DNA from: Antedon mediterranea
Taxonomy: Eukaryota; Echinodermata; Crinoidea; Comatulida; Antedonidae
Length of the DNA stretch: 64,000 nt
Assembly (NCBI RefSeq): GCF_964355755.1
Contig: NC_092672.1
Location: 25,850,501-25,914,500, forward strand
Direction: 5' to 3'
The position numbers were made by a program, and so were the translations under genes. Positions within the stretch are counted from its first letter, which is position 1; every line of letters starts with the position of its first letter. This document shows, one piece after another, positions 3,297-60,888 of this stretch. The notes beneath the pieces were generated by a model. It made no database searches. It saw nothing but the letters and a program-made list of their open reading frames with translations, and was not told the DNA's origin.

Positions 3297-3355
3297 ATTC
3301 GAACCTGCAACCTCTCGCTTACAGGGCGAGTATCATACCACTTGACCACAGAGCC
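3297..3355 (-). pseudogene. 5' portion of the LINE-split tRNA-Thr(UGU)-like gene
   Basis: Read on the minus strand it starts with GGCTCTG (acceptor). A 4-bp D stem follows within an A-box-like GTCAAGTGGTATG, then a perfect 5-bp anticodon stem (CTCGC/GCGAG) around loop CCTGTAA, anticodon UGU. The T arm breaks off at GGTTCGAAT. Position 33 is C instead of the near-universal U, and one acceptor and one T-stem pair mismatch. Together these point to a decayed gene or a SINE head. Confidence 0.7.
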
Positions 3356-9517: not shown

Positions 9518-10604
9518 TTATCTTTCCAGTAAAAACATTATATCTGTCCATAACAACATTTCACACTTAATTCCTGATCCTGGTTTTAATGCATATGTGT
9601 AAGACCTATGAAAAACTTTCCGCTTTTCGTCTGAAATTATACAATTGTAAAACGTTTTATTCAATTTCTTTTCAAACAAATTTAAATCCTTTTCAAAATC
9701 TGGACCGTACTCTGAAACTTTTTTCCAAAATGTTTTATTAAAAAAATCGTATAATATCGTGTCTGCCGAGTTCCAGTCACGTGCTTTTTTTTTCAGACGA
9801 TTTGATTGACCAAAGCGCAATTTGTTTATTCGTACTCCTTTACTAATGTATACAATATCATCCATGTCCCAACACAAAAGCTTTTTAAGTAAGATAAGCG
9901 ACTCGTTAAAATATTCTTGCAAGAGTACCAGATCAAATTCATGGGATAGATTTTCTATAAAGTACTGAATTTGAGTACGATTTAAATACTTAGAAGTCTC
10001 AAAGCCTAAATCATATAATGTTGGATTTTGTAAATGTTCCCGCATTTTGAAACTCTTGTATTCATTCATATAGTGCTGAGGTCTGTGTAAAAACCTCGCA
10101 AAGGGATTTGAATTTTTTGACATATTAAGATATTTATATATTTTAAAATAACCAAACATTGATTCTGCTTGCGTTGCCGGATCGCGTAAAATGGTGATGT
10201 ACTTTGTATCTGGTTTCATCACGGTATCCATTTCTTTCCGATTGTATCGAACGTGGTTCACCAGCATATCGTACTTCTGATTAGGTTCAGCAAAACTCCT
10301 GTTAAATAATTCAATAATGCTGAACATATGACCATGTCTTGGAATAACAAAACTTAAATTGTGCGAAAATCCAAACCTTTGAAAAATAGATGCCACTGTA
10401 GAACTTCCGGTTTTGTGAGTCTTCAAGAAAACAATTTGCGTGGATGTCTTACATTTTTTGATAGTGTCTCCACCTTCAATAGGATCCCTCAATAAATGTT
10501 TCATAACCTGTTTGGAATTATTATTGCTATCCAGACGTTTTCGGACATTCTTCTGCTGAATATTACTGGAAATGACGTAATTAGTTTTTATTCCGTGACT
10601 TCTG
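9518..10604 (-). CDS. Gal3ST exon 2 (catalytic domain)
   Basis: Acceptor AG (minus) lies at 10605-10606 after TTTGTATTTTC. The exon supplies the third base of codon 43 and codons 44-404 plus stop. All PAPS-binding motifs are here; the rest of the gene adds only the anchor. Confidence 0.88.
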
Positions 10605-12301
10605 CTGAAAATACAAATTGATCTTATACAGATTAATAGAATCATTAAATATTTACAACCGTATTTATTCGTCGGGCGTTTATTGTGTGAGAGGTTTTTA
10701 GAAGGGGAGAGGGGTGAGGTTACACACAATTGTGTGGAGCGGCATTTATTAAGGACAAAAGAATAAATACGGACATTGACTAGTTAAATTTACTTGCACA
10801 ATCCAACCTGCATGAGCGTTGGTGCAAATTGGTATTTTAGGTTGTTTTCGTGGAAGATGCTATTATTAATTTCCTGGTAAAATATTTGTTTGTTTTGTAT
10901 GTTTTGTATAATTATGGATGTATTATCCGATTTAAAGGAAGTTATTGAATTAATGAATAATTAGTTCACACAAATAGTCTACGCTACAGTTTTACAATTA
11001 TAGGTAAGCCTTTTCAATCGAACATTCTTGACCACTGACGGATTGCTTTTATTTAAATAGAAATTTGAAAACGCATGCGCACAACTAACACTTTGATTCG
11101 CGCGAATACAACATTCGCCTTGTAAATGAAAGACTTGAAATGAAATAGTATTGGATTTAGTCATAAACATTCATTAATTAAAATCTTGCAAAATATAGAA
11201 GTATATAACCTAAAGATTGATTGAAACACCCATTCTATACAGGTCACTCACATTCAAAATTCAAACACTAAACTAATGATATTCATAATACTTTTGTCAC
11301 TGATAGACCCATTGCAGCTCCAACTGATAACAACATAGCAATAATTATAATGTCAATGTCGGGTTATGATGGATACGTCATTGTTGATACTGACAGGAAA
11401 TACTATTAATACGCTTTAAATTAGAGGATGAAGTAAATGTCGCCGTGATTAGGAAGCCTGGTCGGGCATAGTTTGCGTTAGTCATAGTAGGTCTACATCG
11501 CGCAATCTTAATTTAAAGAGAGATTATTATAATATGCGCCAAGTTTATGTATTTATTTACACACACAATTTATTTTTTTTTAGTTTTTCATTGAATTGCA
11601 ATTGTGTTGTTGTCATCGTGGTATATTTAATTTAGATTATAGTATGATAACATAATTGCCTATCTTAAAATGTGCCCCACACACAGTATTTTTAACTTTT
11701 TATCTTGTATTTTTAATCTTTTATAATACTGCACGTTTTAAATTGTTGCAATATTGTTGTTTTAATATACCAAGCCAAGTGAATTTCCATTTTTATGGAC
11801 AAATAAAATTTCTTGAATCTTGAATCTTGAATCACATGAAACATCAACTAAAACTAGGTTAATCAATAGCCGTTAGCCTCCCAGTGTATTAATCGCATGC
11901 TTTTTTAACATATTCAATTCTATAGGTCTTTCTGAATCCTACGAATAGAATAGAATAGACTGAGCAATAAAGTTGGAGTTGTTGTGTTGTGTGATAGAAA
12001 GAATCAGGCATTAAGCCTAATTACACTTTCGACGTATGTCGAGACGGTGACAACAGTAATACTGTACAAACATATAAAAAAGTAGGCCTACCTATTGTAA
12101 AATAATCAATAATAATATAAAAATTCTAATGACTTGTTTTGAATAGTATTATAGAAATTAGTTGGTTACTTACTTTTGTAGATAGTTTGTAATCTGATGT
12201 GTGTTTTTACCACTTGGAAATTCGCTGTAATATACAATTATTTCAAATAGCAAAACCACTAAGATGCACGGTATAACTTTCCACAAACGCACTTTTGACA
12301 T
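9518..12301 (-). CDS. Galactose 3-O-sulfotransferase (Gal3ST family), two exons
   Basis: CDS is complement of 12174-12301 joined to 9518-10604; 404 aa. Gal3ST enzymes are Golgi type II membrane proteins that move sulfate from PAPS to the 3-hydroxyl of galactose on glycolipids or glycans. Exon 1 gives a short cytosolic basic N-terminus and an anchor (about residues 9-25, VIPCILVVLLFEIIVYY). The lumenal domain carries the 5'-phosphosulfate loop FLKTHKTGSST (102-112) and the 3'-phosphate motif LRDPATQAES (182-191). Several N-x-S/T sequons follow. Length matches the family (about 400-430 aa). Exon 2 is open upstream of its acceptor to an ATG at 10729, but that stretch is intronic. Donor AAAA|GTAAGT and acceptor TTTTCAG|C join in frame (two bases plus one). 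Acceptor specificity (Gal3ST1 to 4) cannot be told. Confidence 0.88.
10605..12173 (-). other. Intron of the Gal3ST gene
   Basis: A 1,569-bp GT-AG intron. It contains a LINE 3' end on the opposite strand (about 11640-11833). Nothing else was recognised. Confidence 0.75.
11640..11833 (+). mobile_element. 5'-truncated LINE fragment (3' end)
   Basis: It ends in ATGGACAAATAAAATTTC followed by three TTGAATC units (11813-11833). This polyadenylation-like sequence plus microsatellite tail is typical of CR1/L2-type LINEs. No coding sequence remains. The 5' boundary is uncertain. Confidence 0.6.
12174..12301 (-). CDS. Gal3ST exon 1 (membrane anchor)
   Basis: The ATG is at 12299-12301 and 42 codons plus two bases precede the donor GTAAGT at 12168-12173. 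It encodes MSKVRLWK, then a hydrophobic helix, then a short stem. The anchor topology is what the downstream sulfotransferase lacks once intronic sequence is removed, and the phase fits. Confidence 0.8.
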
Positions 12302-16214: not shown

Positions 16215-16303
16215 ATGCCGTCAAAGTTTATCAATAAGTTACGACCGAAGAAGAAGAAGGATAAAGATAAGCACAGAGGTAGTATGACGTCACTTGCTGA
16301 AAC
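16215..16303 (+). CDS. HMGCR-like exon 1
   Basis: The ATG at 16215 begins MPSKFINKLRPKKKKDKDK, a strongly basic leader. The donor AAAC|GTAAGT at 16304 leaves two bases that join G at 27031 to form Thr30. No signal peptide or membrane helix. Assignment to this gene rests on frame and strand, because the intron is 10.7 kb; it is the least certain exon. Confidence 0.65.
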
Positions 16304-19300
16304 GTAAGTTCTTCATCATTTTTCTTTTAAATATTAACGTACATTCCTTAGTTTCTTCTACGTCTCTATAGAAATAATACTTTCTATCCTATCTACATGA
16401 CATACTGGGCCTACGTAATGGTGGAGTGAGTATGACGGTGATGAAGATGACACGAGAAGTAGTGATGATGATAAGATAAATTGTAGACGATGAAAATAAA
16501 ATTGATTATACATTTCTTCAACGGTTGATGCTCCTCAAACATGGACTCCATCCCGTTCAACTCTCTCCCCTAACCACCAACATAACTGTCCCTGTTCTTT
16601 ATAATTCATTAAAATTACATTACGTAATCTTCTCTAATTATTAGGCCTATTAGTATTTAGTATACCTTTGAATTCGTGTAGCTCTTAATCATGCAATGTT
16701 AAACTTTTTCTCTCAGCAAATTATTTTTGTATGCTTCTGAGTTTTACAAATCAGCACAATTTCAACATGCATTCAACAGTGTAACGTATTCGTATAGGCA
16801 TTAGACTCAGTTATTTATTATAGTTATTATAATAGACCTGTGAGTCCCAGTGTAAACGGAACTAGCTAGATGATGGGTGGGTAGCGATAGTCCGCAGTAG
16901 ATTTATATAATAGACGGTAGTTTATACACAGATTTTTTAAACGAATTTGACGTATCGGTTGCGTCGAGTTTCCTATCTTTTCTCATCTGCAACATTTTGA
17001 TAAAGTTACGTTACATATGACGTCATGTCCAATAGCGCAATTCGCGCCCTTGAAACAACTTATGACAAGTACCGAATATTGCGATGGATTCCATAATATG
17101 AAGGCCGTGAAATAAAAAAGTTAATAACAAAATACCTCAATTTTGACAATTATTATACCACAAAATGTAAAGAATTTAATATGTTTGCCACCTACGTGTT
17201 TGTATATTGTTGTTGTTAATCTGTGTTTTGGTTCCATGACCTTAATAGTTGAATTAGGGACAATTCAAGCGTGTTCGTGTAATCTATCATATTATAATAT
17301 ATAGTAAAAGTTAACTTTCGTTACGGTTCAATCTGACGTTATTTAATATGTGGCGTGCAAAACTATAATCTACTTGTAGGTACACGTGTAGTGAGGAGTG
17401 AGTCTGATGTCGATGACATGAGTAAGCCTACAACAAAACCATGTAATTAAAACAATTTCAAATTGCATGCTACTTGAATTAATTAGATTGATTTTGTATG
17501 TAACTTACTACAGTAGTCGTATTTTTGTACGGTAATTATTTTAACATTTCATTTTTGTTAGACTTTAATTAAAATTTGCTTCGTTACCTTCGTTAGAAAA
17601 GTCACTTAAAAGACACTTAAACGTGCGTTTCTGTTAAAATTAAACCAATACATTTATATCGATACTTTAGTACTTTACCATATTCACTCTAATATCAGAC
17701 TTTTCTCTACCCACGGATACCAACATCTTCCTGGTTATTGCTCGGCTCTCCCTTGAGTTCGTTGTTCCGTCATAGACGCATTGGATAATTTTTTTTGATA
17801 GGTTCGATTTCGATTCCTATTTATAGAATTGTATTAATTAGCCAGGTTTCAAGTTTGTTTATATTTCACCATAATCTTTTGCCAGCACTTACTATTAATG
17901 ATTCTACAGTAGTGACAGTATGCGGCTGCGAACTGCGGTGTTTATTCGCGAAAAGTACGACCGCTTACGCTAATTGGTCCTTTTGTATAGCGAAAGTTAT
18001 TTGAGACGTTCCACAGCTAAAATATTCTTATTTGTATATATAGTAAAGCTCTGTCTACACTATCAAACTTTATATGACAAAACATGTGATGTGCCCATTG
18101 ACATGATGATGCCATGGGCATTTTAGGCACATCAAACTTAATTTTGCTAAAACATGTTTGATAGTGTAGACAGGGCTTTGGAATCTTACGAGAGATTTTC
18201 AATGTTTTTTTCTTATTTCATTATTTCATTTATACTAACGATATTAACCTTCTAAAAATTATGCTAATAATTAATATATTGACAACGTTTGTTCGACCGG
18301 GTAGTTTATTGAACCTTCACTTGACTATGGTATATCAATTTGTATGATTATTAGGATTATTTTATTCTAATTATCCTAAGGTTGTTAAATTTAAAGCTTC
18401 AATAAGATGTGTAACAAACCAAAATGTAAAACTAAAAAGACGGAATATCGTTACAGTATTACGTTTCCTAAAAATAAATACATAGTGTTTTTAAACTTGT
18501 TAGATACCGTTTTATAAGGTATCGTGTGATTAAGTTTATTGCAATTTCCTTGTAAAAACTCATGCGAACTCGTATGCATTACGACTGAATATGGCGAATT
18601 GCCAGCACAACAGTTTCCGCTATCGTTTGTCAAACTTGTTATCATAATCTATGGATGTCATGAAAACGTCCGACTTGATATAAGTTCTACAAATGGGTCA
18701 TATTTTTAATTAAATTAATTCTCTATCATTTCTAACAGCAGTATTATTCGCTTACTCATGTGCTAATTACGCCGTCAGACTATTATACGCAAATGTTACA
18801 GTTGGCGGGCGTTAGTAGATTTTTTGGATAATATGGTTATATACAGATGGTCGGATCAGTGATTATGATTTGATTTGTCAAGTTACATACGTTGCTTGTC
18901 GATTTCTTGCTTTATAACTTACATTCAATTTTCGTAGAGTAGGCTATGTCTGAAAATATGGGACGAAGTGTGCTGCCTTAACTTGATCTATAATTTTTAT
19001 TATATTATATAATAATTTAAAATAATGAATTATTGTAAACCAAAATATATGCATACATTAATAAATGAATAAAGAAATACCCATAAAAGAAAAAAAAAGG
19101 TATAAGACCAATATTATTGGCAGGAGACACGATACTGCGGACTTGTTTATCGCCATCTATATGATGAGAAAACGCACTACGTGTATCAAGTATGCTTTGC
19201 GTCCTAGCTTTATACGAATCTAATAAAAACAACTTTATGTGCAGCACATAGGCTCATAGTTTAAAAATAACTTACAGCAATGAGATTGAGAACATTATGA

Positions 19301-22300
19301 AATAGGCCCTTAAGTTTTAATAGTAGATAAAAATCAACCAAAACGGAAGAAGAACACGGTGTCGTCTGCAACAGACCTTAATCTAATGCCACTTGTCACC
19401 AGGATATCCGGCATATAGGTCTACATCAGCCAACCTTTATTGTGATTTGTTAAACTTCCTGTAAAATGTCCAAAACCCTAAAAATATTCACCTACTGTAG
19501 TGGAATTTATGTTTCCTGTGTATTTTCCAAATTTCCTACCACGATTCTAACCATAATATTCCTTTTTTTTTCTAAAAGACAAAAACAAGTTCAATTCTGT
19601 TTTCATGCTGTTTAGACTAGAGTAGAAATTTCCAAAAACAAATCTGACTTTTGTATGCACACGTTGGTATAATAGATGAATGTCACCCGCCTCCCTCCCG
19701 ACACTTATCAACCCACAATATAAAATGTAGAACTTCTCATAAATGAATGAAACAAGAAATACACAAAAAGTAGCCGTCTTATTAAAATTTAATAACGACG
19801 TGACGTGTACAAACTGTATGTAGCCTAATTGTGGTTTTCATTTTAACCCCACACACCTGAGTAGGGTGCCGTTATACTGCTACTTATCCATACTAAGTTA
19901 TAAATATTCTCACAAAATATTGAATGAAACCCTCCCTTAAAACCATTAACAAGTCTGAAACGATTATTGTAAGATTCACCATTTTCTCTGTCTTTCGTAT
20001 CAATTTCGACGACAAAAAGAAGGCAATAACGTACGCAAACAGTGTATACGCGCGAAGAACGCACTTTTTAATTCTAATATTCATCATACCTCGAAAATAA
20101 AACTACAGTATTGATAATAAATAAATATACTTATGTACCAATTGGGAAACTCACAAGTAAAATAAACAAAAGTAAATAAATTCACAACATAATTTTCATT
20201 TATTATAAGCTACTTTTATAGCTACTAATACATATTTTGAAAATAAAAGGGGTCACCTTCCGATTTCTAAAAATAAGGTTTATGCCCCTATATGGTTGTT
20301 TTTTCTTTAGTCCTATATGGTTTGAAACAAATAGCCTGTCACTTTATATTAACATGGATACATTATTTAATAATTCATCTAATCATCTGATCTAATAAGG
20401 TAGATGAGTTTTGAAATAGAACTTCGTCATTACTTAATAATTGGTAATAATCATAACAATCAAAATAACATTAATTTATAAATAATTATTACAATATCAC
20501 CAAAGCCGTCTTTCGACGACTGGTTTATGCAAGGTCTATTAGATTAAAAAAGAAATGAATTCGGAAATTACACTGTTGACTGATGGCTACTGTTTAGTAT
20601 AAAATCTGTGATTGAAATGTATTTGTTACAATCGTGTTTAGAGTTTAACCATGTATTTTTACTCGTAAACAGTAATATAACTACAGTCTAGTACTTTCCT
20701 AAGAATGAACTTTAGAATACTAAGTTCTTAGTAGACAACGTTTGTTCCTGTGTAAGTTGTTCAAAATGTCGTCAAAAGTAATAAAAACGATTTGTTGTAC
20801 ACAATTAGAAAAAACATTATTAATAAAATAACGTATAATTTTGTAATAGGGTCCTGACCGCTCTAGAGGTACTTTGTGGCTGCCGCTATTTGACATTGAT
20901 GATGAGTGCACGGAAGCTCTTTGACGTCTGTTAAATCTACTTCAATTAGTGAATTGTGACACAGAAAAGTATAAAAAAAAAGATTTTATTACATATGTAT
21001 TTTAAGATTGTGACGAATTAATCATCTTAAAGTCACATGACCTGTATTGTACGGAGCAATGCCCTTTTATTGGAATAACCCGATGAGTGTTTCATAAATA
21101 ATAAATCATAAACATTTTTAAGAAAAGAGAAAATTCTTGGAGAACAAATTAAGACCTTATTACAAAATTCGTAACATAATGTTTGTTGACACACTATAGT
21201 TATATGCGCACTGTGAACGCCGCATGTTTCTGGACGGTAACCTGTTGATATCGAGAGGCCTTACCTTTTAGTATCTTATCTAAATTGTAAGGTCTTTTCC
21301 AAATTCCTTGATCAAACCTCCTGATCAACTACTATTTGTTGAACGTTTAAACATTGGGATATTTATTACCACTTTCTGCTCCGGTATTTTTCCTCTAAGG
21401 CCAGTTTAGCGTGGGAAAATTAGGTCATGTTATAAAGTATTTAATGTAGAGTTCTGGGCATACTTCAGCAGGGGTATGATACAGAGGCGTGTTGTCTTTC
21501 AGATGATTTAAAGTGCAACGAATGAGCGCTTTAATTCATGGGTCATATTTCTGCATGACATGACCTTCAGATACTGTATTAATATGATGAGGCATATTGC
21601 ATTAAATAGTATAACAGGGGCTTTATTATTTTACTGTCGTACCTGTCATTTTAACTGATTGAAGTCATATTAATGTTATCATAGTCTTATCTTTTAAGTA
21701 AAAATGTTAAATTCTGTAAAATGTAAACTATTTCAATGAATTAAACGCCTGTTTGGAAACTGTCAATGAATATTATGATATTATTTTTTAATAATTTATA
21801 GGTAAAAACTGTGTTTTAAACTATTTAAAGGTATTGCTAGGTATATACTATCTATTTCATTGATCTTTTTTTTGTTTATTTAATCCAAGGCAATGATAGC
21901 ATTGCTTAAAACAAATTGTCTTCCAAATTTACCCTATTTCCAATGCTTTTTTCAGCCATCTTCGTACGTAACCTATATAATTGTTGTCAATTTACATGAC
22001 GATATTGTCGTCTTCTAAATAATCTTTGTAAATAATTACAAAAATGAAGAAGAATGAATCATTCGAAACTTATTATAAGAACCAAACAATTTTGTATAAA
22101 CTCACAATGTCGGTAAATATTTTATTCGTATAATAATGTATTTAACTACCGTGGAGTAGCTTTGCATAGTTGAGTAATTGGTTAGATCTGTACTCTGGCA
22201 TAAGTTTGTATTTATACACCTGTATATATGTAAGTAATTCTCGAGCGGGACCTATAGATCAATAGCCTGACGTTTATACTGATTATTTTCTTTAAAAATT

Positions 22301-25300
22301 TTATGAACTTATGGGGGACACAGATTTAAAAAATGTGTTTGTTATTTCATTTCTTCCCCACGAACCCATCGCAAGTATACTGGGTCAATTTTCTAGCTCA
22401 TATAATATGTGCGAAGGTTTATGACCCACATTCCGTCGTGCATCCGATATTTCCATTAAAACGTCGATCAATGGAATGTGCAATATTCTCCCGTGAATAT
22501 TCGATTGGGGCCCATCCACAGGTGGCTTCTAGACCATAAGGTCTAAATAATTAGGCTATAGTTTAGATAATATGTTAACATTAATTACTTGATTCCAGAA
22601 AATTAATAAAGTATTTCTCGTCCAATAAATAGATTGCCGATTGAAATAAAAGTACGATTTTTTATTAACGTCTTGATTAAGGTAAAGAATTCCTTAACAT
22701 TAACAAATGTTAAACATTTTATTAATTATGTGTACTTTTCTGTATAATTATTATAGGCCTACCTTTATACCAATGCCATTTTAAAATAAAACAGATTAAT
22801 GCATACAGAACATACTCCGACCCGATTTACAGTATCCTTACTAGAACTATATAATTTAAATATCGATATCTTTAGCTTTAAAAACAAAATTATTATTATT
22901 TTATTTCCAAAAATACAATCAATAGGCCACCAGATGTGGCAACAATACAAACAAGGTTCTCAAAACTTATTATTGTTCGAATAACAACATTTTTTTTTTA
23001 TATCTATCGATACAGTAGCTATCAATTTATAGAACACACTTTTTACACTCAAACATTGTGGTATAACTTTGCACTGTCGGATGTACTTCTGAAACTCTCG
23101 TGAAGTATCAATCGGGAGATAGATCGGAGTTTTGACGACATACGAACTCGTTTTGTTTGTAAAATCCGATGTATTGGGACAAAAAATGATTTAGTTTGAA
23201 CCCCAAATGGGCAATCATCAATCGTTGACTTTTGAGTTCGTAACTGTTAAAATGTCCTTCTACTGGAACCAAATTACCACGTGACATTGTACTGTTTATA
23301 ATAATCACTTTTTTAATGGAATGTTTACTATAGAAATGGAAACAAAAAATTCCAGTGTCGATAATCCAACAAATTGTGAAGATATAACAGTGTGTGTAAG
23401 TTCTATTGATTTATGATCCAGTTATGTAGGCGATGGGTGGGTGTAATATTATATTCCTTTATAATAAATTTCCTACGAGTGCTTTTTGACAGTGACTGAC
23501 CTTGTAAACATATTCTGTTGAGGAATTTCAAGTATGACGGGGATAGAGATTCAATATAATACGACGTATTAAACGATTATGAAAGTATTCAGCTAATTCA
23601 ATTGTGTTTATAGTTTATCAATAGATAGTTACAATTTATTGCCTATTGCTTTACACGATAATTATTGCCTCAAAGCGATGTTTCTTTTGAAGTTTTAACT
23701 GAAGCTATGGCGGGCAAAGTGTGCCTTAAACGATTATGAAATTATTCATCTAGTTAAAAATGTGTTTATAGTTTTATCAATAGATAGCGACAGTTTATTT
23801 TGCCTATCACTAAACCACAATAATTTCCTTCCATGTTTCACGTTTAAAAGTTTTAACGAAAGGTATGGCATGTAAAGCATATGCCTAAACAAGTAAAGAG
23901 GACGATACTACACCATCAACAATAAGTAAAGTATGTGTGTTCATTCATCATAACACACATTCAGGATGTGTAGATCATCAATAACGACCTCACACACTCA
24001 CCATCGAGCAACATCCTCAAACAAAGAAACACTAGGCGAATTTGTTCGCGCGCGCAAATCCAACGTTTCTTCGCAGAAATAAATATCGCGCAACCCTTTT
24101 CCACAACAGCGATTAGCTGCGATTTCAATGTTCATCAAATCAAAATAAACATTTTTTTCTTGAAAAGCAGAAAAGATAGCCTTTAGATTCGCATTCATGA
24201 GTGCTCATGAACGCGTCATAGCTCATTTCCTGAGCTCTGATAGGTTGCGCAATTTTCCTCTTCGCAAAAAGTAAAAACAATTTAAAGCGAAAAATTCAAG
24301 GGCCTAGAATTCGTCGCAAAGAGAGGGATTTGGAAGGTTGAAAATGAATACGCATGCGTATAAGGCGACTCTTTCGATTCACACAAAAAAATTTGCCTAC
24401 TGTAAACATTTTGGCACACATGGCGTTTACAGACGAGAATGAAAACGCTGACTGGGGGCGCTCGTAATACTAACAGCATCAAAAAAGAGACTTCGGGAAA
24501 GTATAGAGTTAGATTAGGACACAGTTTGTGTTTACCATATCCGCCATGACGACCTTGCACACTTTAGAAGAGAAAACAATCAATCATAACTGTCTTCACC
24601 TCAGGTCAGGGTGTGTGTGTACCATCCATCACAATGACCTCACCCTCCCAAGGTATAGATAAGCAATACCTTACCCCTGAGGTAATATATTCCCCGTTTA
24701 GTAGCAATTCATTAGTCATTAGTGTTAGCATAAGGGCAATGTATCGTCATCCATAACACCAACATAATGTACACTTATGCGGAAGGCAAAGACCTATCAA
24801 TTTATATAAATATGTAGGCCTACTGCCTCATGAGGATGTACAGTCATTCTAGGATGTGATTTACTTTACGGTTTCCGAAATAAATATATATATAATGATT
24901 GATTGACAATACACAAAACATTTAAAAAATACACATTGATGTGATGTGAATGATCATTCACAAACTAAAAAGGATATAATTATTATTATAACTATTTGTA
25001 ACTAAAATTATTGTTTCAGTTTTGGGTTATGCTGGCAGCATACATTATATCAAGTTTGAGGCTAGGTAGCTGCTGCCTTGAGATTTTCAAATTATGACTT
25101 TTCCCCCAACCCTCAATAATCATTGTTTCGTGCCGGCCAACAGGGTCAAAACGTCCTGCTGTGAAATTTCCCTAATTCAGTACTTACTCGCCAATATTTT
25201 TAACGTTGTTGTCGCCTAGGATTTTGAAGTTTTCAAGTAAAAAAAACAACAAAACTTTAAGATTTTATATAAAAAGCGTCAGATTTTAGGTGCGTAAGAA

Positions 25301-28300
25301 TCACGCCATATGCGCGGGACTTAACATGTAGGAGTATATTGTAGAGGACCACTTCAATGCCCTAATTGTTTTGATTCTTATTTAAGTTTATACTTAAGTA
25401 TTTATACGCAAGAATAAGAATAGTGAATAAATGTGTACAATACTATTCAGTATCACACAGATCTATTAACGGTTTATTTTAAGTAGACCTCTTATGTGGT
25501 GTTGTGTTGTTGTAAAATACTTCGAATAACATTTTCCTGATTTCAATTGAATGAAATAAATCAATAACTGATTTCTTGGTATTGAGATTTTTATCTTACT
25601 ATAAAACATTTTTTTTTTTTAAATACATAAATATTATTTATGTATTTTTTAATCCACTATTATAGTCATGGCGTTGACGCCTAAATAAATAAAACGAATG
25701 AACCTCGAAATGTGGTTGCTGTTGATGGTAGCCACGTGTGACTGAACAGTTTAACTTGCGCAGATGGCGTTTCACTCGACTCGATGCGTAGTCGAGTGGC
25801 GCGCCGTAACATATTTCAATTTCAATAAATTCTTGTTATATCTAAGAGACGAAGTCAAGAAAAACTGTTTTCCTATGCCTCATGGTACCACACTTATAGA
25901 AAAAGAAACTCTCCCCACATGAACTCCCACTCTCTTAATGTAAAGGAGTAAAACCAACTCTTTTAGAGTAATAGTCACTCTTTTTAAGAGTGATAGTAAG
26001 GACCACTATTAAAAGAGTGAAACCACTCTTTGAAAAGAGTGAATCGCTCAAATGTTTTAAAGTGTGGTTTTCACTCTTTCAAGAATGATTCTAATACCAC
26101 TCTTCAAAATCATTTAAAAGTTTCACTCTAAACAAATAGAGACATTTTCACTCATTTACAATAAGAGAGTATAGCGTGGACTTGTGAAAATGTACACATT
26201 TTGCAGTTAATTCAATGACATTCAAATCACAAACTAAGGGTATACAAGTGAAACTAACTTCTGAAGAATCAAATAACAGCCATTTTAAAAACATAAACAG
26301 AAACTAGTATTAGAAATTAACACATATTCTTTCCTAATCACGTGGTAGATATAACATATCTACCACGTGATTTGGAAATGGTGTACAGTAGGCCTATCAT
26401 CGACAGTAGTCCGAATGTGTAAAGGAAGCATAGATAATCTAAATGTCAGTTACTGTTAAAAGGAAATGTTTATCGTGATAGAGTTCATGTGCAGTAATAA
26501 AATGCTGTTGTTTTATAAATTTACAATCGGCCATCTTGTTAAATAGGCCTAGACATTATATTGTTCATTTGCTAGGAAAGCGCCTGATTTGACAGGTCAC
26601 GACTGTTTTTATGTTAACCCCAAAAACGAAATTATGTACAATCATGTATTGTTGTAGAACTGTTATTTCTGTGGTTATTGTTTCTTTTTACGTTCTGTCT
26701 CTGAATGAATGTCTCATTGCCAAAACAGTAGGCCTACCACTTCGTAATCCCATAACGGTGGTGTAGGCCTGTAAGACGTAACACCCTTTCTCGTCCTGAG
26801 AAAGACGTCCTAATATTGATTTGATGTTAAATCGGTTGATGGAGTGATGTTAGTTTTAATGCAGCAGGCGGTAAAGGAAGATAAACAAGTACGATTATTT
26901 ATAAAATAACCAAATCATGTGCATTTAAGAAACGTGAATCGGAACATGTTTATACACAAGTTGTATTTATAATTGTTATTTAAACAATCTTTTAACTTAC
27001 AAGTTACATAAAAGTTATTATTTGTTTTAGGCAAACACAGACCCCTTCTGAAGTAGAGACCCGCAAGGAATATATAGAAGCATCCATTTTGAGCAAAGTC
27101 AATCTTGATCCTCTAAATGAAAAAGACGATTCCAACACCTTCAAAAGTAACATCGAAAATTACATTGGCACGGTGAAAGTTCCAGTAGGGGCAGTTCAGG
27201 TACAAGTTAACGGTAGTCATGCAAATGGAAAATACACAGTCCCATTGGCAACAACAGAAACGTCTTTAGTCGGAACCTGCAACAGAGGATGTCAGTTGAT
27301 CAATATGTGCGGTGGTGTTGAGTCAGTAGTCATCAAGAAACAAGTCCAGAGTGCGCCGATCTTTCACTTTGAAAGTATTCGTTTAGCTGTGAAGTTTAAT
27401 GAATGGCTAGGCCTACCAGCGACATTTGAGTCTGTCAAAACCAATGCAATTGCCGTTGTTGAAGAGGCTGTTCTTGTCAAACTCGAACACTCTGTGCATG
27501 GCAACTGTGTGTACTCTCGTTGGTACTTCGATACTGGAGAAGCAGTTGGTCAGAATATCTCTACTTATGCTACAAAGGAAGCTATGGAGTCAATCTTAAA
27601 AGAAGCACCCGTCCAACCGAGTAGCTGGGACCTTGACGTCGGACTTGCTAGGAACAGACAAGCGGCAACTAGTCTGATGATAGACGGACGTGGTGTCTAT
27701 GTAACTGGAGAAGTCGTTTGCCCAAAGGAGAAGGTAGAAGAGATACTACACGTGTCAGGTAAGTGAAACCAAATAAGTAATTATTTTTTATCGAACATTT
27801 CTTACTACGGAATTTATCTAGAATTTGTGTAGGCCTATTTACGTTTGTAACTTTGTGATTACACATATTTATATCATGTACTGCACTAACATTATTTAAT
27901 TTGTAAATTAAGAGATTATGATTGTCTTATGTCACCCAAAAGTTACATAAACAAAATGTAATGGTCATTACGCCTATGCATGGTTTATTATAACTTATCA
28001 TTTTGTATTTGACATTTAAAATAAATGTCAATTAAGTCGACGTTCTATTTCGATTTTGAAATAGAAAACCCATTATTAAGTGTGTTTACTAAAATGGCAA
28101 CAAGTCTATGAGATTAGTTTTCTTTCTATCAGTGTTCATATATAATTGCGTAAGAGAAGGTCATCGCTGCATCAGGAAACACTGTAATTTTCATCAATTT
28201 AACTTCTGTGAAGAAGTTATAAGCAAATTGTATTATTTGCATGGAAGTCGACCCCTGGGAACACTTGTTAGTCCTCGTACTCTGTAATAGTATCTACATT

Positions 28301-31300
28301 GTGGTTATTATAAAATATATTTATAAATGTCGAGACACCTTCAGTACGCACTCGATTTCTTTAGTCCTGCACATATGGCACAATTTTATCCAAATTATGT
28401 AACGCAGTGTCACTATGCAGGTCCATATATAAATTGTAATGGTACCGGTACGCTACTTCTGTAGCCTATGATACAGACGTTACATGTTATGCACTGTTTT
28501 ACAGAATTTGCTGATGATACTGGACAAAGATATTGGGGTAAATGCGCTCCATGGGCAAGGGAAGCTTAGGCATAGACGAAGTTAAACATTTAGAATAGAA
28601 AATTCAACATAGAAAGTTATAAGAGTTAACTAATTATTATTATGCTCTACATGTGTATTGTAATGGTACATTCAAGCTTTAAGGCGCAAATTATTGCATT
28701 TTAGTATTAAAGTCAAAATGGCTTCCGTTATTGTAAACGATCTTGATTGCGCCATAATCAATTCTAATCAGCAGAATAATTTGGCAGGGTTTAGGTAGCC
28801 ATTTTTCATCGAAATATAGATTGAATCATGTATACAGTTGTTGTTATCTTTACAATTGCAGCCGAGAAGCTGGCGTCTTTTTCAAGAGAGTCGAGAACAT
28901 GGCAACTAATCTCTCATACCGCAGGTATGTTATTTTCTATAAAAATTTCTTTCAAAGCGTTTGATTACTTAATCCGTTTAATTCAAACGTATGCGTAATC
29001 GAATCGTATTGGCAAAGATTCTATACTGAAAATTATAATACTTTGGCATGCCGTTATAGACAACCATTGGCCCATTTCATGGCAAGAATACATCTTTCTG
29101 TTCCTGAGAGTGCATCCGGATTTTTGTTATAGACTTTTTCTAATAGTGCAGGGGCGTAAATGTGGACTACTCATTTTAGTATCATAAATAAATAGGTACA
29201 GTTATAAGCGAGTGTCTTATCTTGTCAGTGGTGGGTGGGTGGTTGTATGACTGACGCTTATTTTAACCTCAGAAAGAAATCTATTATTTTATCCAAAGTT
29301 CGGCAGTATAAAATAAGCTACGTTTCACTTCATGTAGCTTTATACATCCGATACAATACTAACATTTCCGAGAATTTTATAAGTATGTTCAATCGGTACG
29401 CAGAACCTAGGAATTTGAGTTGGTGTGTTCGAACTGTTTACAAAATATACCGCCCTCTTTAGTTAGCATAATTTCATTCGCTTTCTTATACCGTCAGATT
29501 ACTAGTTTACTATTACTAGGAATCGTTATATTATTAAATCATTGATGCCATTCATTTAATCTAGACTTATCTTTCTTGCATGATGAAATTATGATCAATG
29601 TAGCATGATCTGCAATTTCGCATGCTATCTTCTCCGACTTTCTCTTTGTTTTGGTTCCTTTCCTCTTAATTCCCCTGTGGTATGATTTCATTATTACTTA
29701 ACTGATTCATTACTCATGCACTGTCTATGCACATATTTATAGGCTCAGGAATAATTGATAAAGTTATAAAACACTAATCTCTGTAGAAGATGATCATTGC
29801 CCGCCGCGTTGAACCAATTGCCGCGGCGTTGAACCGATTGAAAGTTTTAATCCTTCGTCTGGTACAATGAGTCACATGGGTGTTTTGCATCGAGAGATAT
29901 CGATTAAAAATGCTCTGTTTAACAAACCCGAAATTTGTACTATTTATAATGTGACTATACCGCCACATTTATTATAAATCTTGTTAATGGTGTAAGGGAG
30001 GGGTTTATTTTGTTTACTGGATTGTCCACATGTATTCCGTCAGAATTAAGACTTTCTGAAGAATAAGGTATATAGTAATGTGCATTATGATAGCCAGTGC
30101 GCCTACTCGCCCTGCGTTTTAGTACTTAATGTAACACAAGCAACACTCGCACATGTCAATAAATAACACTATGCGTAACAATCTAGATCCAGTATTATCA
30201 ACATGGCCTTATCTAGGTCCGTCATTGAAAACGTGACCTTATTCAGGTCCGTAATAACGCAATGAACTCATCTAGGTATGTTATCTTAGTAGGATATTAA
30301 AATCGATTTACTTATATTATATTAGGATGTCTATTTGAAAAGCGTGATTTTCTTGCAAATCGTGCGTTCTTAATTTTCTCCCTCAGTATTATGACATACA
30401 ATAACATTTAGTTAACAACAGTTTTCAATTTATTTAGCATTATCCAGAGTAATATGAGTCATTAGTTATACTCGTATCCGATTGTCCCAAAATGTTATAA
30501 CCATCATATTTATGTCAACATACAAGATGAATAACGATGTTACTATGTGAAAAATGAAAGGTGATTCATACACCTTGACTTTAGATGCTGGGAATACTAA
30601 CACATTATATTTGATCTATTTTAGATGATATCTAACAGGATAGTACATTTTATTTGAATTGAAATTAATATTTAATAACTAAACTTTTGTTTATTTTATG
30701 TTTGCTGCTAATAATAACACATCTGAATAAATTTTAAAGTGGCGGATTCCATCCGATATCTAGATTTCCCAGTAAAAATATGCAATACAGCATGTAGCCT
30801 AGTATCAGAGGCCATTAACTGATCCTTAACCTCACCATGGCACATGTGATACACATGTGATACTGTATTACCGAATTGGTCTAAGATAGAGTAAACATGT
30901 TGTCGTATGTGAGATGTGAGAGATAGGCATACATCAGTAGTATTACCTTGTCCCTGATACGTTGGGAGATAAGCAGGCATTCAAATGAAAACCAATACTT
31001 AAACTTAGTTGGCAGCCATTACATTCAGATCGACTTATTTCAGGGTTAACCATTTTAAATATTATACATCATAGGCCTATCTAAAATTGTAATAGTGCCT
31101 TTACAATTATCTGTATTTGTCCATTATATGGGGAAATAATGCTACTAATTTAAAAACAGAAATGTAGGAAAATCCGCTTCTTTAATTTATTTTTACAATT
31201 TTATTTATTTTGTTGGTTTACGTTTTACTAACATTTTACCGCAAAGCTATTACTAACGTTGGTTCTTAGTTTTGGGCTTCTCATCTTCCAAAGCGCCCTC

Positions 31301-32900
31301 ACATACAGTTTCTTCAAACATTCATCTCGAAGGCTCGACATACCAATCTGCCAGGGTGATCGCAGCAATACTGGTTGCCAGTGGGCTGGATGCGGCCGCC
31401 GTAGTTGAATCGCACGTCGGGATCTCTGATATGAAGCTAACCAAGAACGGTGACCTTCGAGTTATTGTTACTCTGCCATCGCTGATGATAGGGACAACTG
31501 GAGGAGGAACCAAGCTACCAAGCCAACAGGTAAAGTTAATACATTTTTGGAAAACCTGTCCATTAATGGGGCTTCATCTGTACATAATAAGGGCCGTGAG
31601 GACACTGTTCCCAAAACCTCAATAGGCAAAGTGGCAAACATATTGATATCCACGCCTAAGGCGCAAAACAATGACGTACACACAACCCAAGTAATTTGGC
31701 CAATCACAGGCGACAGTTTGATGATCATTCGTTTGTGATTGGTGGAATTAGTGATACGTACGTTCTGGTATACTAGTGGTACTGTAATACTAAACTCATC
31801 TTAACGTGAGAATTCGAGGGCTGCTTTAATGCTGCAAAGAATCCTGTAATAACGTTACTCTTTGATTGCAAAATAATTTTCCACTAGAAACAATTAATTT
31901 ATTGAAATGTTTCAACATACAGCACCCAATATTAAATGTCACGCTATAATATTCTTGGATCTTCTTTAACTAATGCAAATCATAGATATCATAATCTTTG
32001 GCGTTTGAAGTAATTTTCAAGGACAATCAGAAAAGTAGATTCCAAGAAGATAATTAATAACCATCAACTTATTTATATAATAAAGATTTAAGACGTTCAT
32101 ATTATATGCATTTCCTGAACTGCTGGAATAGATACTGCTGAGTCATTGGCAAAAAATACGATATTGAATATACCAGATTCCCTATAGGGTACGAGGTTCA
32201 TATTTGGACAACATATTTTGAAATTACAGCTATTCGTTGGTTTCGATATTTTCGAAATTCGGCTAAATCAAACCAATATCAGCAAAGATAGTAGCGGGGA
32301 TATAAAATGTTTGCTATCACAGCAATATGCAAAATGTTTAATTTGTGTTTTTCATGACGTGCCACTCGAATACAGCTGTCCAGTTAAAATACATATATAA
32401 TATGTGGGCGCTCAGAAGCATTATGAGCATGCACAAAATGTATGTTAGACGATTAACCGGCTTGGTAGTCGCATTGGCATATCGCAAAAACAGGAGGTCG
32501 CCACTATCTACTTAACTAGCACCTTCCACTGAATTAACATAACGATTACAAAAAATATTTTTTATAGGCATGTCTTCAGATTATTGACCTCCCGGAAGAG
32601 AAAAGTAGAGAAGCATTTGCAGAGGTCGTCCTGGCTGCAGTGTTAGGTGGTGAAATAGGTATGTGTGCTGCAATGATTAGCCACCATTTTGTAAACAAGA
32701 AAAAACGAACTGAGTCAGAAACACCATCTACATCTTTGCCAAACGGAAATTCGGTCATCGAAGAAGATAAAGCTGGTGAAGCAGCCGCCGAAAAGCTCAA
32801 TGGCGATGCCACTCCGAGTGAACAAGTCAATGGTGACTCGGCACCAGGAGAAGTTAAAGAGGAGACCAAAAAAGAAGATAAAAAAGACCAAAGCAACTGA
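16215..32900 (+). CDS. HMG-CoA reductase-fold protein, probable pseudoenzyme, five exons
   Basis: CDS joins 16215-16303, 27031-27758, 28862-28924, 31270-31529 and 32568-32900; 490 aa, all junctions in phase. The family reduces HMG-CoA to mevalonate with NADPH. Matches in order: IENYIG (71-76), PVGAV, LATTE with Glu106, NRGC, IDGRG (247-251), SGLDAA with Asp334, PSLMIGTTGGG, GGEIG, and His420 in SHHFV. Glu, Asp and His of the catalytic set survive. The segment matching DKKPAAINW reads ARNRQAATS, so the catalytic lysine appears to be Asn238. The GDAMGMN motif reads GEAVGQN, and the NKN segment is absent. There is no membrane domain: the N-terminus is 29 basic residues (KKKKDKDK), and the C-terminus is a Lys/Glu-rich tail. 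A cytosolic, catalytically altered paralogue is likely; substrate binding may remain. Confidence 0.82.
18045..18179. mobile_element. MITE, family B
   Basis: A 135-bp element with near-perfect terminal inverted repeats AAAGCTCTGTCTACACTATC / AAAGCCCTGTCTACACTATC. The second arm is read on the minus strand. The similarity continues inward to AAAACATGT. No coding capacity; target duplication unclear. Confidence 0.85.
23569..23885. repeat. Diverged tandem duplication, about 157-bp unit
   Basis: Unit 1 starts TTAAACGATTATGAAAG at 23569 and unit 2 starts TTAAACGATTATGAAAT at 23726. Both continue with GTGTTTATAGTTT, ATCAATAGATAG, TTGCCTAT and a terminal GCC. Divergence and small indels show an old duplication. 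Confidence 0.8.
23995..24415. mobile_element. Non-autonomous DNA transposon remnant (family C copy)
   Basis: Shares ordered blocks with the outer element at 59198-60238: AATCCAACGTTTC, the GCGATTAGCTGC region, GAGGGATTTGGAAG, a GATTC-rich end, and the terminal TTTGCCTACTG, which matches TTGCCTAGTG there. The left inverted repeat was not found, so the copy is truncated or decayed. Open frames across it are incidental. Confidence 0.6.
25900..26175. repeat. Cluster of ACTCTTT/AAAGAGT inverted motifs
   Basis: Repeated short dyads such as CACTCTTTTTAAGAGTGA occur many times in about 270 bp, in both orientations. A weaker version lies at 43745-43850. This may be a degenerate foldback element or a tandem array of palindromes. 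It is non-coding. Confidence 0.65.
26330..26378. repeat. 49-bp near-perfect palindrome
   Basis: Arms 26330-26352 and 26356-26378 pair over 23 bp with one T-T mismatch around a 3-nt loop (AAC). The core arm is AATCACGTGGTAGATAT and contains an E-box CACGTG on each side. Confidence 0.9.
27031..27758 (+). CDS. HMGCR-like exon 2 (main part of the fold)
   Basis: Acceptor TTTGTTTTAG|G; donor TCAG|GTAAGT. It encodes residues 31-272, covering the ENxIG motif, catalytic Glu106, GEAVGQN and the changed lysine region. A TAGGCCTA octamer at about 27409 is used as codons for Leu-Gly-Leu-Pro. Confidence 0.9.
27759..28861 (+). other. Intron 2 of the HMGCR-like gene
   Basis: GT-AG intron of 1.1 kb. No repeat family or nested gene recognised. 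Confidence 0.6.
28862..28924 (+). CDS. HMGCR-like exon 3
   Basis: A 63-bp exon: acceptor ACAATTGCAG|CC, donor CGCAG|GTATGT. It encodes EKLASFSRESRTWQLISHTA. In active reductases the matching region holds the NINKNLVGSA segment with a substrate-binding lysine; that is not preserved here. Confidence 0.8.
28925..31269 (+). other. Intron 3 of the HMGCR-like gene
   Basis: GT-AG intron of 2.3 kb. A short duplication of a CGTTGAACC(A/G)ATTG unit lies near 29808-29840. Three diverged copies of an ATCTAGGTCCGT-like unit lie near 30185-30285. No nested gene. Confidence 0.5.
31270..31529 (+). CDS. HMGCR-like exon 4
   Basis: Acceptor TTCTTAG|TT completes Val294; donor CAACAG|GTAAAG, phase 0. It holds catalytic-type Asp334 (SGLDAA) and the glycine-rich LPSLMIGTTGGGTKL, which matches the conserved MPSIEIGTVGGGT of active enzymes. 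Confidence 0.9.
31530..32567 (+). other. Intron 4 of the HMGCR-like gene
   Basis: GT-AG intron of 1.0 kb. A hairpin at about 31699-31741 (CCAATCACA ... TTGTGATTGG) resembles the centre of MITE family A and may be a remnant. Open frames here are spurious. Confidence 0.5.
32568..32900 (+). CDS. HMGCR-like exon 5 and stop
   Basis: Acceptor TTTTTTATAG|GCA. ACLQIIDLP continues the conserved QQACLQML segment, and GGEIGMCAAMISHH matches GELSLMAALAAGH, keeping the catalytic His as His420. After NKKKR the protein becomes low-complexity (Ser/Thr, then Glu/Lys/Asp) to the TGA at 32898. The regulatory serine context after the His in vertebrate HMGCR is not recognisable. Confidence 0.9.
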   Translation, partial: ACLQIIDLPEEKSREAFAEVVLAAVLGGEIGMCAAMISHHFVNKKKRTESETPSTSLPNGNSVIEEDKAGEAAAEKLNGDATPSEQVNGDSAPGEVKEETKKEDKKDQSN

Positions 32901-40006: not shown

Positions 40007-41232
40007 CTATCCCGTCCTAGTCGATTGAAATAGTATAGTACATGTAACGATACATCACTACGAATTGTATAATATGTTTATATAATGTAAAACAATTTGT
40101 GAAAACCGCACCGATTCGTGGCAAATCATAAATTCGAGTAATAAATATTAAATTATCTAACTCAACTTAATTAGTAGGCCTAATGGGTTTCAATTGTTTC
40201 TTAGAGCCAATTCATACTTAAGTTGGTTCCTAACCCTACCCACCAAAGTTGTTCTGCGTTTAGGGCATGTGATGCACCGTAGGCCTATCCTCTCCCGTCT
40301 TTACAACGCTACTCATGCCAGTGAGGGAAGGGTGATGCTGTGGGTGGTTTAAATGCAATAATAAAGATTTGTACATAATATACGGCGACTGAAAACGCTA
40401 GCTCATTATCCGTTTAAAAAAAATTATATCCAACCTCTGCAACACAGATTGGGAAAAAAATGGATCGAATTTCTGTTATGAGTATACAGTACTTGCCTTT
40501 ACGACGCCTGAGGGAATAGACACTTGTTGTGGAACAGAGATTGGAATGTTCCATTCATCGCAAATCAATACATTTATATAAACGTATATTAAATCTCTCA
40601 AAATAGTATTTTTTAAAGAAAATAGGCCTGTCTTCAACATTATGATGCTGTACTCGAGCTGTTCAACCGGTTTTCAGCCATTAAAAACAATTATCGTAGG
40701 AGGAGATAGGAAAATGCGAAGCATCCTCGTGTTATTGTCTTCGGGTATTTTTCAAGATGGACATCCATTAGACAGTGTATACCACGATCGAAAAACACCC
40801 CTATTTGGGGCAAATCGTTGAACCTAAATTTGTTTTAATTGTCAATAACTAATTATCTAACTCAATTTAATTAGTAAACAGGGTTACATCTGGTGGTTAA
40901 AATCAGTACCGAAATTCTAACCAACTTTATATACCATCGAGTAAACATTCTAGAAATAACGCCTGATTTACCAAATTTTGCCCTTACGTAAATTTATATA
41001 TAGATATAAAAACAGAAAGAATTTCTATACCTTTGGGATTCCTGCCAGATTGTGCATAACGTGTTTTTTTTTTTAATTTCAATATGAATTTTAATTTTGG
41101 AGCCGCGTTTTTGATCTGAAACCTGGCCATCAGTTTTCTGAATAAAACATAAAACAATGATACGAATCTTTTTGTTTCAACAAAAGAAAGTCTTTAGCGT
41201 TTCCTGTAATTATCGAACATCAGCATGATTGG

Positions 41233-41856
41233 TTAAGAGTGTGTTTACCTGCACCGGGTGACGGGTCTTGATTAAGAGTGTGTTTACCTGCACCGGGTGA
41301 CGGGTCTTGGTTAAGAGTGTGTTTACCTGCACCGGGTGACGGGTCTTGATTAAGAGTGTGTTTACCTGCACCGGGTGACGGGTCTTGGTTAAGAGTGTGT
41401 TTACCTGCACCGGGTGACGAGTCTTGGTTAAGAGTGTGTTTACCTGCACCGGGTGACGAGTCTTGGTTAAGAGTGTGTTTACCTGCACCGGGTGACGAGT
41501 CTTGGTTAAGAGTGTGTTTACCTGCACCGGGTGACGGGTCTTGATTAAGAGTGTGTTTACCTGCACCGGGTGACGGGTCTTGGTTAAGAGTGTGTTTACC
41601 TGCACCGGGTGACGAGTCTTGGTTAAGAGTGTGTTTACCTGCACCGGGTGACGGGTCTTGATTAAGAGTGTGTTTACCTGCACCGGGTGACGGGTCTTGA
41701 TTAAGAGTGTGTTTACCTGCACCGGGTGACGGGTCTTGGTTAAGAGTGTGTTTACCTGCACCGGGTGACGGGTCTTGGTTAAGAGTGTGTTTACCTGCAC
41801 CGGGTGACGGGTCTTGGTTAAGAGTGTGTTTACCTGCACCGGGTTACGGGTCTTGA
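41233..41856. repeat. 39-bp minisatellite, 16 copies
   Basis: Sixteen units built from TTAAGAGTGTGTTTACCTGC and ACCGGGTGACGGGTCTTG(A/G). Variation is confined to a few sites (GACGGG/GACGAG, TTGG/TTGA). The period is a multiple of three, so stop-free frames run through the array on both strands. The minus-strand frame repeats VQVNTLLTKTRHP. No start context, splice site or flanking domain supports a protein. Confidence 0.95.
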
Positions 41857-42500
41857 TTCATCCTGTAAAAAATGGAACGGTTCACTATTTCTGTTCTTCG
41901 AAAAGTTGAAGAATAAAACAATTTTGAAAGCTTGGATTTGTACCTATATTGGCACAGTTCAGTAGGCTATAGTACAGTACTATCGAGTATAAAATGCATT
42001 ATACTATGTAGCCTACTATACATTAAACTAAATAGGCATGTTATAGTAGTATCTAGGCCTACACAGTATTTTAAATAAACTTTTTAAAATTTAATATTTA
42101 TTCGAGACTCAATTTTTTCTCTGTTAAATCATGTTTTATGAGTAATTATATGTGGGCCTATGGTTTTCCATCCACAATTTCACAACACAAAAGTATAATT
42201 GAAAAGGTATGTAAAAAACCTAATCATAAACAATTTAATTTGAAAAAATATTCGTGGTTCTTAGAATAAACCAATTGTTTCTAAATTTAGGAGCATCGGC
42301 AGAGAGAGGGGCTGCGGTAACCATATATATTATGTTGTAACATAAACTGCGGTAGATTTCGTGGAAAAACAATGGTATGAACTTTTGGCGCACTATGCTG
42401 AGAGAGAAACGAGAGAATATACTCATTTGAATTTCTCTTGACAAAGCGTATCACGTGACGATTTTCTAAAAATTTCAAGTTAAATATCCTTTGTTATTGA

Positions 42501-49400: not shown

Positions 49401-49937
49401 CGCCAAAGGAAAACATGGCGATAGATACTCATTTGACGGTAAAGGCGGTTGGTTGGCGCATGCGTTCTATCCAAGAAGTGGACATGGTGACATGAATGGT
49501 GATATTCACTTTGACGATTCAGAAAAGTTTACACTAAGACCAGGAAAAGGTACGTAGATAAAAAATCAGTATATAATTTTACGAACACACCAGTTTTCGT
49601 GTGTTTTGTCATATGAAGTTCAAATTCAGCTTAAAATCCGTTGCTTAATTCTATAAACATATGTCGATTGCTTAATTATGCAAATTTGTAGTGCCATGTA
49701 ATGTCTAACATATATCTTTATTTTTTTTCAGCTGGTTATAATTTCTTCTATGTTGCATCACACGAGATTGGTCATAGTTTAGGGTTGGGACACTCGCGGG
49801 TAAGAGGAGCTCTCATGGACAGTGCGTATCCAGATGACCCGTACAACGTAAAACTCACACAAGATGATATTGACGGCATCCAGGCGCTCTACGGTCCACC
49901 AAATACACAATCAAACGATATTTTTGATCTCATATAA
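46351..49937 (+). CDS. Matrixin-type metalloprotease A (no hemopexin), four exons
   Basis: CDS joins 46351-46485, 46759-47012, 49257-49549 and 49732-49937; 295 aa, all phases consistent. A start at 46372 gives 288 aa and aligns better with the paralogue. It is a secreted zinc endopeptidase of the MMP/hatching-enzyme family. Order: signal peptide, short prodomain, Ser-rich tract (about 66-84), a cysteine at 98 in PPECGKSND, furin-type REKR (111-114), and catalytic domain from YIHVGGKW. Zinc ligands are His238, His242 and His248 with Glu239 in [11 protein letters not shown]; Met256 makes the Met-turn. The HGDxxxFDG ... LAHAF ... GDIHFDD block supplies structural zinc and calcium sites. The usual peptidoglycan-binding-like prodomain and hemopexin domain are absent, and PRCGxPD is degenerate. 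A tandem paralogue starts 4.4 kb downstream. Confidence 0.88.
46759..47012 (+). CDS. Matrixin A exon 2 (propeptide)
   Basis: Acceptor TATATTTTAG; donor TATAG|GTGAGT, phase 2. It contains a 15-bp-period TCATCGTCATCATTA-like repeat coding for SSSSL units, the lone propeptide cysteine and the furin-type site. Confidence 0.85.
47013..49256 (+). other. Intron 2 of matrixin A
   Basis: 2.2 kb, nothing recognised beyond scattered TAGGCCTA octamers (about 47479, 48303). Intron 1 (46486-46758) and intron 3 (49550-49731) are short and empty. Confidence 0.6.
49257..49549 (+). CDS. Matrixin A exon 3 (catalytic domain, structural metal sites)
   Basis: Acceptor TTTATTGCAG; donor AAAAG|GTACGT, phase 1. It runs from RIMNYP through [18 protein letters not shown], the HGD motif and GDIHFDD. 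Confidence 0.9.
49732..49937 (+). CDS. Matrixin A exon 4 (zinc-binding helix, stop)
   Basis: Acceptor TTTTTTTTCAG. It encodes the zinc-binding helix, the Met-turn (GALMDSAYP) and the final IQALYGPP, where MMP catalytic domains end, plus ten extra residues before TAA. No hinge or hemopexin follows. Confidence 0.92.
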
Positions 49938-60238: not shown

Positions 60239-60888
60239 CAATGAGCGCGCATGAGAATCGAAACATTTAGCAGACATGTGATGGAAATGGAAATCGCAGC
60301 TATTTAATTTTTGTAGATTTGTATCTCTTACTCAAACCGTGGTATGTTTACATTTTTCTCAACAATGTGCGTCACTCTGTCGACCTTTCTCAAACTGAAC
60401 TGTACTTTTTGGTTTAAATCAGACATTAAATAAAAGTTACAATAAGGCGGAACACACTAATCAAAACAACAGCGAACACTCAACAGATTAAATAGGCATG
60501 TATAAACTTAAAAGTCAATATGATCATAATACAGTAATATTACAATGTACTATATCAATTACAATACTGTAGTCACGTTAAATACAGACACAACTAAACT
60601 GGTACAAACTGGTTCGGTCCGGTTAGAAGAAATACAAAACACAAACAAAACAAACAACCATACATAGGCCGACAAAGTACTATTACATGAAAGAATACAT
60701 TAAATGCACAAATAAGATCCTATAATATAATAATTGTATTGCCACTATCGATTACAGTATACACAAAAAGGCTTATGCACCGACACGTCACATATATTTT
60801 CAATCATCAAGGGCATTTAAGTAGGCCTAGATGCGCCACAGAGAGAAGTCACTATTTGAATTCACCAATGTTATACGCTAAAATAACT
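60239..60888. other. Upstream region of the DBH/MOXD-like gene
   Basis: The coding frame is open upstream to 60739, but the signal-peptide start at 60889 is preferred. No TATA box was identified. Confidence 0.4.

Follow-up and report, generated by a model that had tools for sequence, protein, structure and literature searches.

A soluble, bacterial-type HMG-CoA-reductase-fold gene of the crinoid Antedon mediterranea as a probable pseudoenzyme

HMG-CoA reductase (HMGR) is among the most studied enzymes and the target of the statins. The catalytic tetrad of class I HMGR consists of Glu559, Lys691, Asp767 and His866, in the numbering of human HMGCR (from 1dq8) that is used throughout. In this study we analyzed an HMGR-like gene in a stretch of 64,000 nucleotides of the crinoid Antedon mediterranea (C3:25850501-25914500 in a 354-Mb genome of 18 contigs), referred to here as the window. 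A match to bindin, a sperm protein of echinoderms, on contig C1 (E 2.3e-28) points to an echinoderm genome. Pfam COX1, searched as a sign of mitochondrial DNA, had no match, and neither had glycoside hydrolase family 6, a tunicate marker whose control was equally silent. The product of this gene, the window copy, resembles class I HMGR such as human HMGCR and the archaeal 6hr7 and 6hr8 in its fold, in Glu559 and Asp767 and in the GGGT turn, whereas DKK, the catalytic His and the NKN loop are missing and GMN is replaced by GQN. Moreover, the membrane domain of the animal HMGCR is absent. The relation to class II HMGR, which we take to include the entries 5wpj and 7m3h, is a distant one of fold; sequence similarity is marginal (E 1.2e-5 to 4.5e-4 for C4a, a paralog of the window copy), and no class II match to the window copy was listed in the PDB search at 0.001.

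Gene model and fold of the window copy

The gene model comprises five exons on the plus strand, separated by four introns. Exon 1 (16215-16303) holds the start ATG and the basic N-terminus MPSKFINKLRPKKKKDKDKHRGSMTSLAET and ends in phase 2 at the donor AAAC/gtaagt, a phase identical to that of the 5' exons of the paralogs C5a, C5b and C4b. The main reductase domain is encoded by exon 2 (27031-27758), an open frame between the splice sites ttttag/GCAAA and TCAG/gtaagt which contains Glu106 (E559), GEAVGQN and, at 27653-27661, NRQ for DKK. Exon 3 (28862-28924) is the least certain, a microexon of 63 nt located where the NKN loop would lie (AEKLASFSRESRTWQLISHTAG). Its length and phase equal those of the C5a and C5b microexons and its splice sites are good; its protein similarity is weak, with a score ranking second among 26 open candidates in that intron, and the frame stays open (448 aa) when the exon is omitted. 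Exon 4 (31333-31529) carries Asp313 (D767) and GTTGGGT, and exon 5 (32568-32900) encodes the C-terminus with Lys404 (codon 32700-32702) in place of the catalytic H866 and ends with the stop TGA at 32898-32900.

The first-pass annotation had proposed a product of 490 aa. This length was reproduced with an alternative acceptor of exon 4 at 31270, which adds 21 residues and, by eye, has the better branch-point region. However, the DNA from 31333 aligns with the start of the paralog exon (GCTCGACATACC versus GATTGACATACC), and we therefore prefer the model of 469 residues. All exons have GT/AG borders and matching phases and contain no in-frame stop, so that the uninterrupted frame over five exons described earlier was confirmed. 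The protein ends in a charged tail of 64 aa which is found in none of C5a, C5b and C4a. Contamination was ruled out by the introns, by paralogs with identical introns and by the position of the gene on a 39-Mb contig of the animal genome.

The reductase fold, also claimed before, is borne out by the match of Pfam PF00368 (HMG-CoA_red) to exon 2 alone (E 1.3e-44) and by the PDB sequence match of the whole protein to 6hr7 (E 5.8e-50). The structure model of exon 2 is of low confidence (mean pLDDT 62) and adds little; its best Foldseek match was again 6hr7 (E 1.3e-11, TM 0.44). A search of a viral collection with the window protein returned no relatives. Together, these data show a predicted gene for a soluble HMGR-fold protein with an open, spliced-looking structure.

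Several other features of the window were noted by eye. An uninterrupted frame of 902 aa at 610-3318 on the minus strand has the look of a non-LTR retrotransposon endonuclease/reverse transcriptase, and a minus-strand frame of 421 aa at 9518-10783 with the motif VFLKTHKTGSSTV is like galactose 3-O-sulfotransferases. Two related frames at 49180-49557 and 56840-57175, perhaps a tandem duplicate, look like the catalytic domain of a matrix metalloprotease, and a frame at 60691-61167 is like a DOMON domain (DBH-like monooxygenase). A minisatellite-like array at 41210-41857 can be read as TRHPVQVNTLL repeats, with two open frames on the minus strand.

The HMGR-like family and its bacterial relatives

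The PF00368 profile revealed at least 6 HMGR loci in the genome, with at least 20 exon matches, and one of these loci is canonical. The first-pass annotation had suggested looking for a canonical HMGCR elsewhere in the genome, and its catalytic exons were indeed found on contig C11, with ENVIGYVPLPVGIAGP, GDAMGMN, DKKPAAVNW and all four catalytic residues; this HMGCR is known from its catalytic exons rather than as a fully assembled gene. The other loci are five HMGR-like genes, namely the window copy on C3, C4a and C4b on C4 and the tandem pair C5a and C5b on C5. The intron between leader and exon A is in phase 2 in the window copy, C5a, C5b and C4b (the C4a leader was not found), the microexon lies between phase 1 introns in the window copy, C5a, C5b and C4a (C4b is unclear), and the B/C intron is in phase 0 in all five. 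Since these introns are common to them, the five genes derive from a single founder by DNA-level copying. The history implied by the first-pass annotation, an HMGCR deprived of its membrane domain, does not hold: the canonical HMGCR is on C11, and the window gene belongs to a soluble family of its own, bacterial in type. By sequence, the family is shown to be distinct from the animal's own HMGCR.

The window copy is 38-41% identical in protein to C5a, C5b and C4a, with introns and microexon in common. Unlike the window copy, these three have kept the whole Glu/Lys/Asp/His tetrad (C4a carries K692R and H752Q), and C5a and C5b have leader-like N-termini. In C4b (C4:28246500-28256499, minus strand) the frame stays open, with DKK lost and the GQN motif scrambled; it is possibly a second dead copy in decay.

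To find bacterial relatives, a genome-contig collection was scanned with patterns from the alignment of the five animal proteins, which gave 206 stretches with 144 relatives, 80 of which were kept (L015-L094). All 80 loci have bacterial titles, and their best segments are 38-46% identical to C4a. E559, D690, K691, K692, D767 and H866 are conserved in every one of them. In addition, all 80 have Gln at 657, S684 is replaced by Glu (73) or Asp (7), and Lys735 occurs in none. These relatives thus form a recognisable subfamily, judged by its residues, that combines the reductase tetrad with a changed HMG pocket. With the best NCBIfam model, TIGR00533, the four bacterial proteins tested reached 328-349 bits and C5a reached 276 bits, all below the cut-off of 441.8. 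The window copy is like this GQN-type subfamily in GQN itself, in the replaced NKN loop, in Ala at 693 and Phe at 862 and in being soluble, but it lacks D690, K691, K692 and H866, which all 80 have kept.

The neighbourhoods of the bacterial genes were read in 12 of 18 genomes. In 8 of these 12 a PPDK/PEP-utiliser gene lies downstream on the same strand, as part of a cluster (loci L098-L110). By similarity, a UbiA-like gene, a DUF3419 gene and a membrane protein are each present in 6 of the 8 clusters. Pfam searches with one representative each matched UbiA (E 9.9e-9, just above the cut-off), PPDK_N with PEP-utilizers, and DUF3419; the representative of the membrane protein, which by eye resembles a dolichol or phytol kinase, had no Pfam match. 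All four clusters that were extended further downstream continue with two genes, by eye GNAT-like and acyl-CoA-ligase-like. The cluster was absent in the stretches read of Photobacterium, Thaumasiovibrio, Thalassomonas and Roseofilum. The gene content of the cluster suggests a lipid pathway in which the bacterial enzyme may form an alcohol by reduction of an acyl thioester. PPDK-like and DUF3419 genes were not found in the animal genome with one Methylomonas query each, a search run without a positive control. The titles and abstract openings returned by a literature search contained no description of the HMGR-like family or the bacterial subfamily.

Catalytic residues, constraint and N-termini

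The first-pass annotation listed Glu106, Asp334 and His420 as retained catalytic residues. Glu106 (E559) and Asp334 (D767; residue 334 in the 490-aa model) are indeed retained, whereas His420 falls in the H861 column, which is not catalytic and is His in only 38 of the 80 bacterial relatives. The true catalytic column, H866, is Lys in the window copy (H866K), where each of the 80 bacteria and the four remaining copies of the family have His. For D690-K691-K692 the window copy reads N-R-Q, with K691R at Arg239; this altered catalytic-lysine region had been reported before, and it occurs in none of the 80 relatives. The other two motifs reported as altered were seen as well, GEAVGQN in place of GDAMGMN and the loss of the NKN loop, which is replaced family-wide and reads Ser in the K735 column of the window copy. 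They are not specific to this gene, however. Since the bacterial subfamily has GQN and no NKN loop, two of the three altered motifs are family traits; what sets the window copy apart, according to the alignment, is NRQ for DKK (K691R) and H866K. Half of the predicted catalytic tetrad is thus replaced, and the reading as a pseudoenzyme is supported more strongly than it was first argued, since neither the catalytic Lys nor the catalytic His is left.

Further changes in the window copy are R590S, H752Q, N755R and Q766L, while the N658 and G806-808 columns are retained. Most of the residues lining the HMG pocket are replaced. Among 63 universal columns, which are identical in human, plant, archaeon and at least 76 of the 80 bacteria, 21 are changed in the window copy, 19 in C4b, 11 in C4a, 9 in C5b and 8 in C5a.

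Over 415 codons compared between the window copy and C5a, the mismatch at codon positions 1, 2 and 3 was 0.46, 0.32 and 0.70. Moreover, the 469 codons of the window frame contain no stop, against about 28 expected for randomised sequence. From this codon-position divergence and the open frame, the window protein appears to have been constrained over much of its history. In the NG86 estimates dS is saturated in all four pairs with the window copy and in some others; dN and dS were 0.26 and 1.70 for C5a/C5b, 0.18 and 0.83 for C5a/C4b, and 0.34 and 1.40 for C5b/C4b. The comparison with the paralogs indicates past constraint on the window copy and, since dS is saturated, would also be compatible with a recent relaxation.

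The leaders of C5a, C5b and C4b contain more Arg than Asp and Glu together and a motif similar to R-x-[FYM]-x-[ST], features suggestive of mitochondrial import. The N-terminus of the window copy is lysine-rich and has no cleavage-like motif. Its hydrophobic moment equals that of C5a (0.38 and 0.37; 0.61 in C5b and 0.58 in C4b), so that a loss of the leader is argued from charge and motif.

Origin and possible role

The tree comprised 48 rows, including 39 of the 80 bacteria after removal of near-duplicates. The five animal HMGR-like genes form one clade (100/99) that is joined with the 39 bacterial rows (100/100), in a run whose bootstrap had not settled, and the family stands apart from the human, C11, plant and archaeal enzymes. 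Long-branch warnings were raised for the window copy and C4a, and the end branch of the window copy is the longest in the family (2.48). When the animal genes were forced together with eukaryotic HMGCR, the AU test with all rows gave a cost of 40 log units (p 0.011). In a quick tree without the window copy and C4b, the two long branches, the cost was 20 log units (p 0.19); here the animal genes join a single gammaproteobacterial row, L051, which is itself long-branched and carries a warning. We also counted 13 diagnostic columns in which the residue common to human, plant and archaeon differs from that of at least 90% of the bacteria. Bacterial-type residues occupy 5 of them in the window copy, 7 in C5a, 8 in C5b, 5 in C4a and 4 in C4b, canonical residues 0, 1, 0, 2 and 0 in the same order, and the rest are other, in counts biased at columns inside the animal-gene patterns with which the bacterial rows were fetched. 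In 13 columns that set human and plant against bacteria and archaeon, the animal copies are of prokaryote type in 8-10 and of eukaryote type in 1-2.

Judged from these comparisons, horizontal acquisition of the family from bacteria is likely, though not proven. The family could also be an ancient eukaryotic paralog that was kept in few lineages, or a gene passed on via another eukaryote. The position of the animal clade in the full tree, sister to the sampled bacteria with no evident donor, would suit such a history, as would the AU result without the two longest branches. Against this stand the AU result with all rows and the diagnostic columns, bacterial-type in 4-8 of 13 and canonical in 0-2, and we regard this origin as unlikely. 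A derivation of the window gene from the animal's HMGCR by loss of the membrane part seems highly improbable. It shares the fold, but the canonical catalytic exons are present on C11, and a genome search with the window protein, which returned the same five loci, gave one weak C11 exon match of 28.7 bits. Furthermore, the window protein scores 174 bits against archaeal 6hr7 and only 118 bits against the human enzyme, and among the 13 eukaryote-versus-prokaryote columns it is prokaryote-type in 8, eukaryote-type in 1 and other in 4.

With regard to the fate of the window copy, we favour, with a probability of about 0.6, a pseudoenzyme: a gene of bacterial type for an HMGR-like protein that was probably acquired horizontally and duplicated, one copy having become non-catalytic. 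It is doubtful that the window copy is instead an active enzyme of altered chemistry or substrate, in which the roles of Lys691 and His866 have passed to Arg239 and Lys404, or one that carries out a partial reaction, for instance aldehyde reduction or thioester hydrolysis. Both lost basic residues are replaced by basic ones, and the E559, D767, N658 and G806-808 columns are retained; yet Lys691 and His866 were kept by all 80 bacterial relatives, and the pocket is altered too (R590S, D690N, K692Q, H752Q and N755R, with K692R and H752Q also in C4a). A further alternative is a decaying copy, an old gene that recently lost its function and is on its way to a pseudogene. The family's longest end branch could be a sign of this, and the sister C4b, with DKK lost and GQN scrambled, indicates that such loss occurs in the family. 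As the exons of the window copy are open with GT/AG borders and its second codon positions are far more conserved than the third, we consider decay quite unlikely.

For the pseudoenzyme, the following course can be proposed. The family would descend from a bacterial-type HMGR-like enzyme, probably by acquisition, and not from the animal's HMGCR; the founder gene gave rise to dispersed and tandem copies. The ancestral enzyme may have used NAD(P)H to reduce an acyl-CoA thioester to the alcohol; as the whole subfamily differs at K735 and S684, HMG-CoA was probably not its substrate. The paralogs with leader-like N-termini would act in mitochondria. In the window copy, the changes of Lys691 to Arg and His866 to Lys would no longer permit the proton-transfer steps, and the protein, apparently devoid of such a leader, may have been retained for a non-catalytic role in the cytosol or nucleus, such as that of a regulator that binds a ligand or a partner. 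More tentatively, a reductase from a bacterial lipid cluster, of a subfamily whose substrate would not be HMG-CoA, might have been captured, put into mitochondria and multiplied, and the one copy kept by selection as a cytosolic or nuclear non-catalytic HMGR-fold protein may sense an acyl-CoA or lipid intermediate.

The changed pocket and conserved neighbourhood of the bacterial subfamily suggest a reductive step in the lipid chemistry of bacteria, one for which the titles and abstract openings seen gave no description. If the reading as a pseudoenzyme is true, the HMGR fold would gain a new type of member, a relative that an animal has retained without catalytic function, and its tetrad-intact sisters in the same genome provide a built-in comparison for the window copy.
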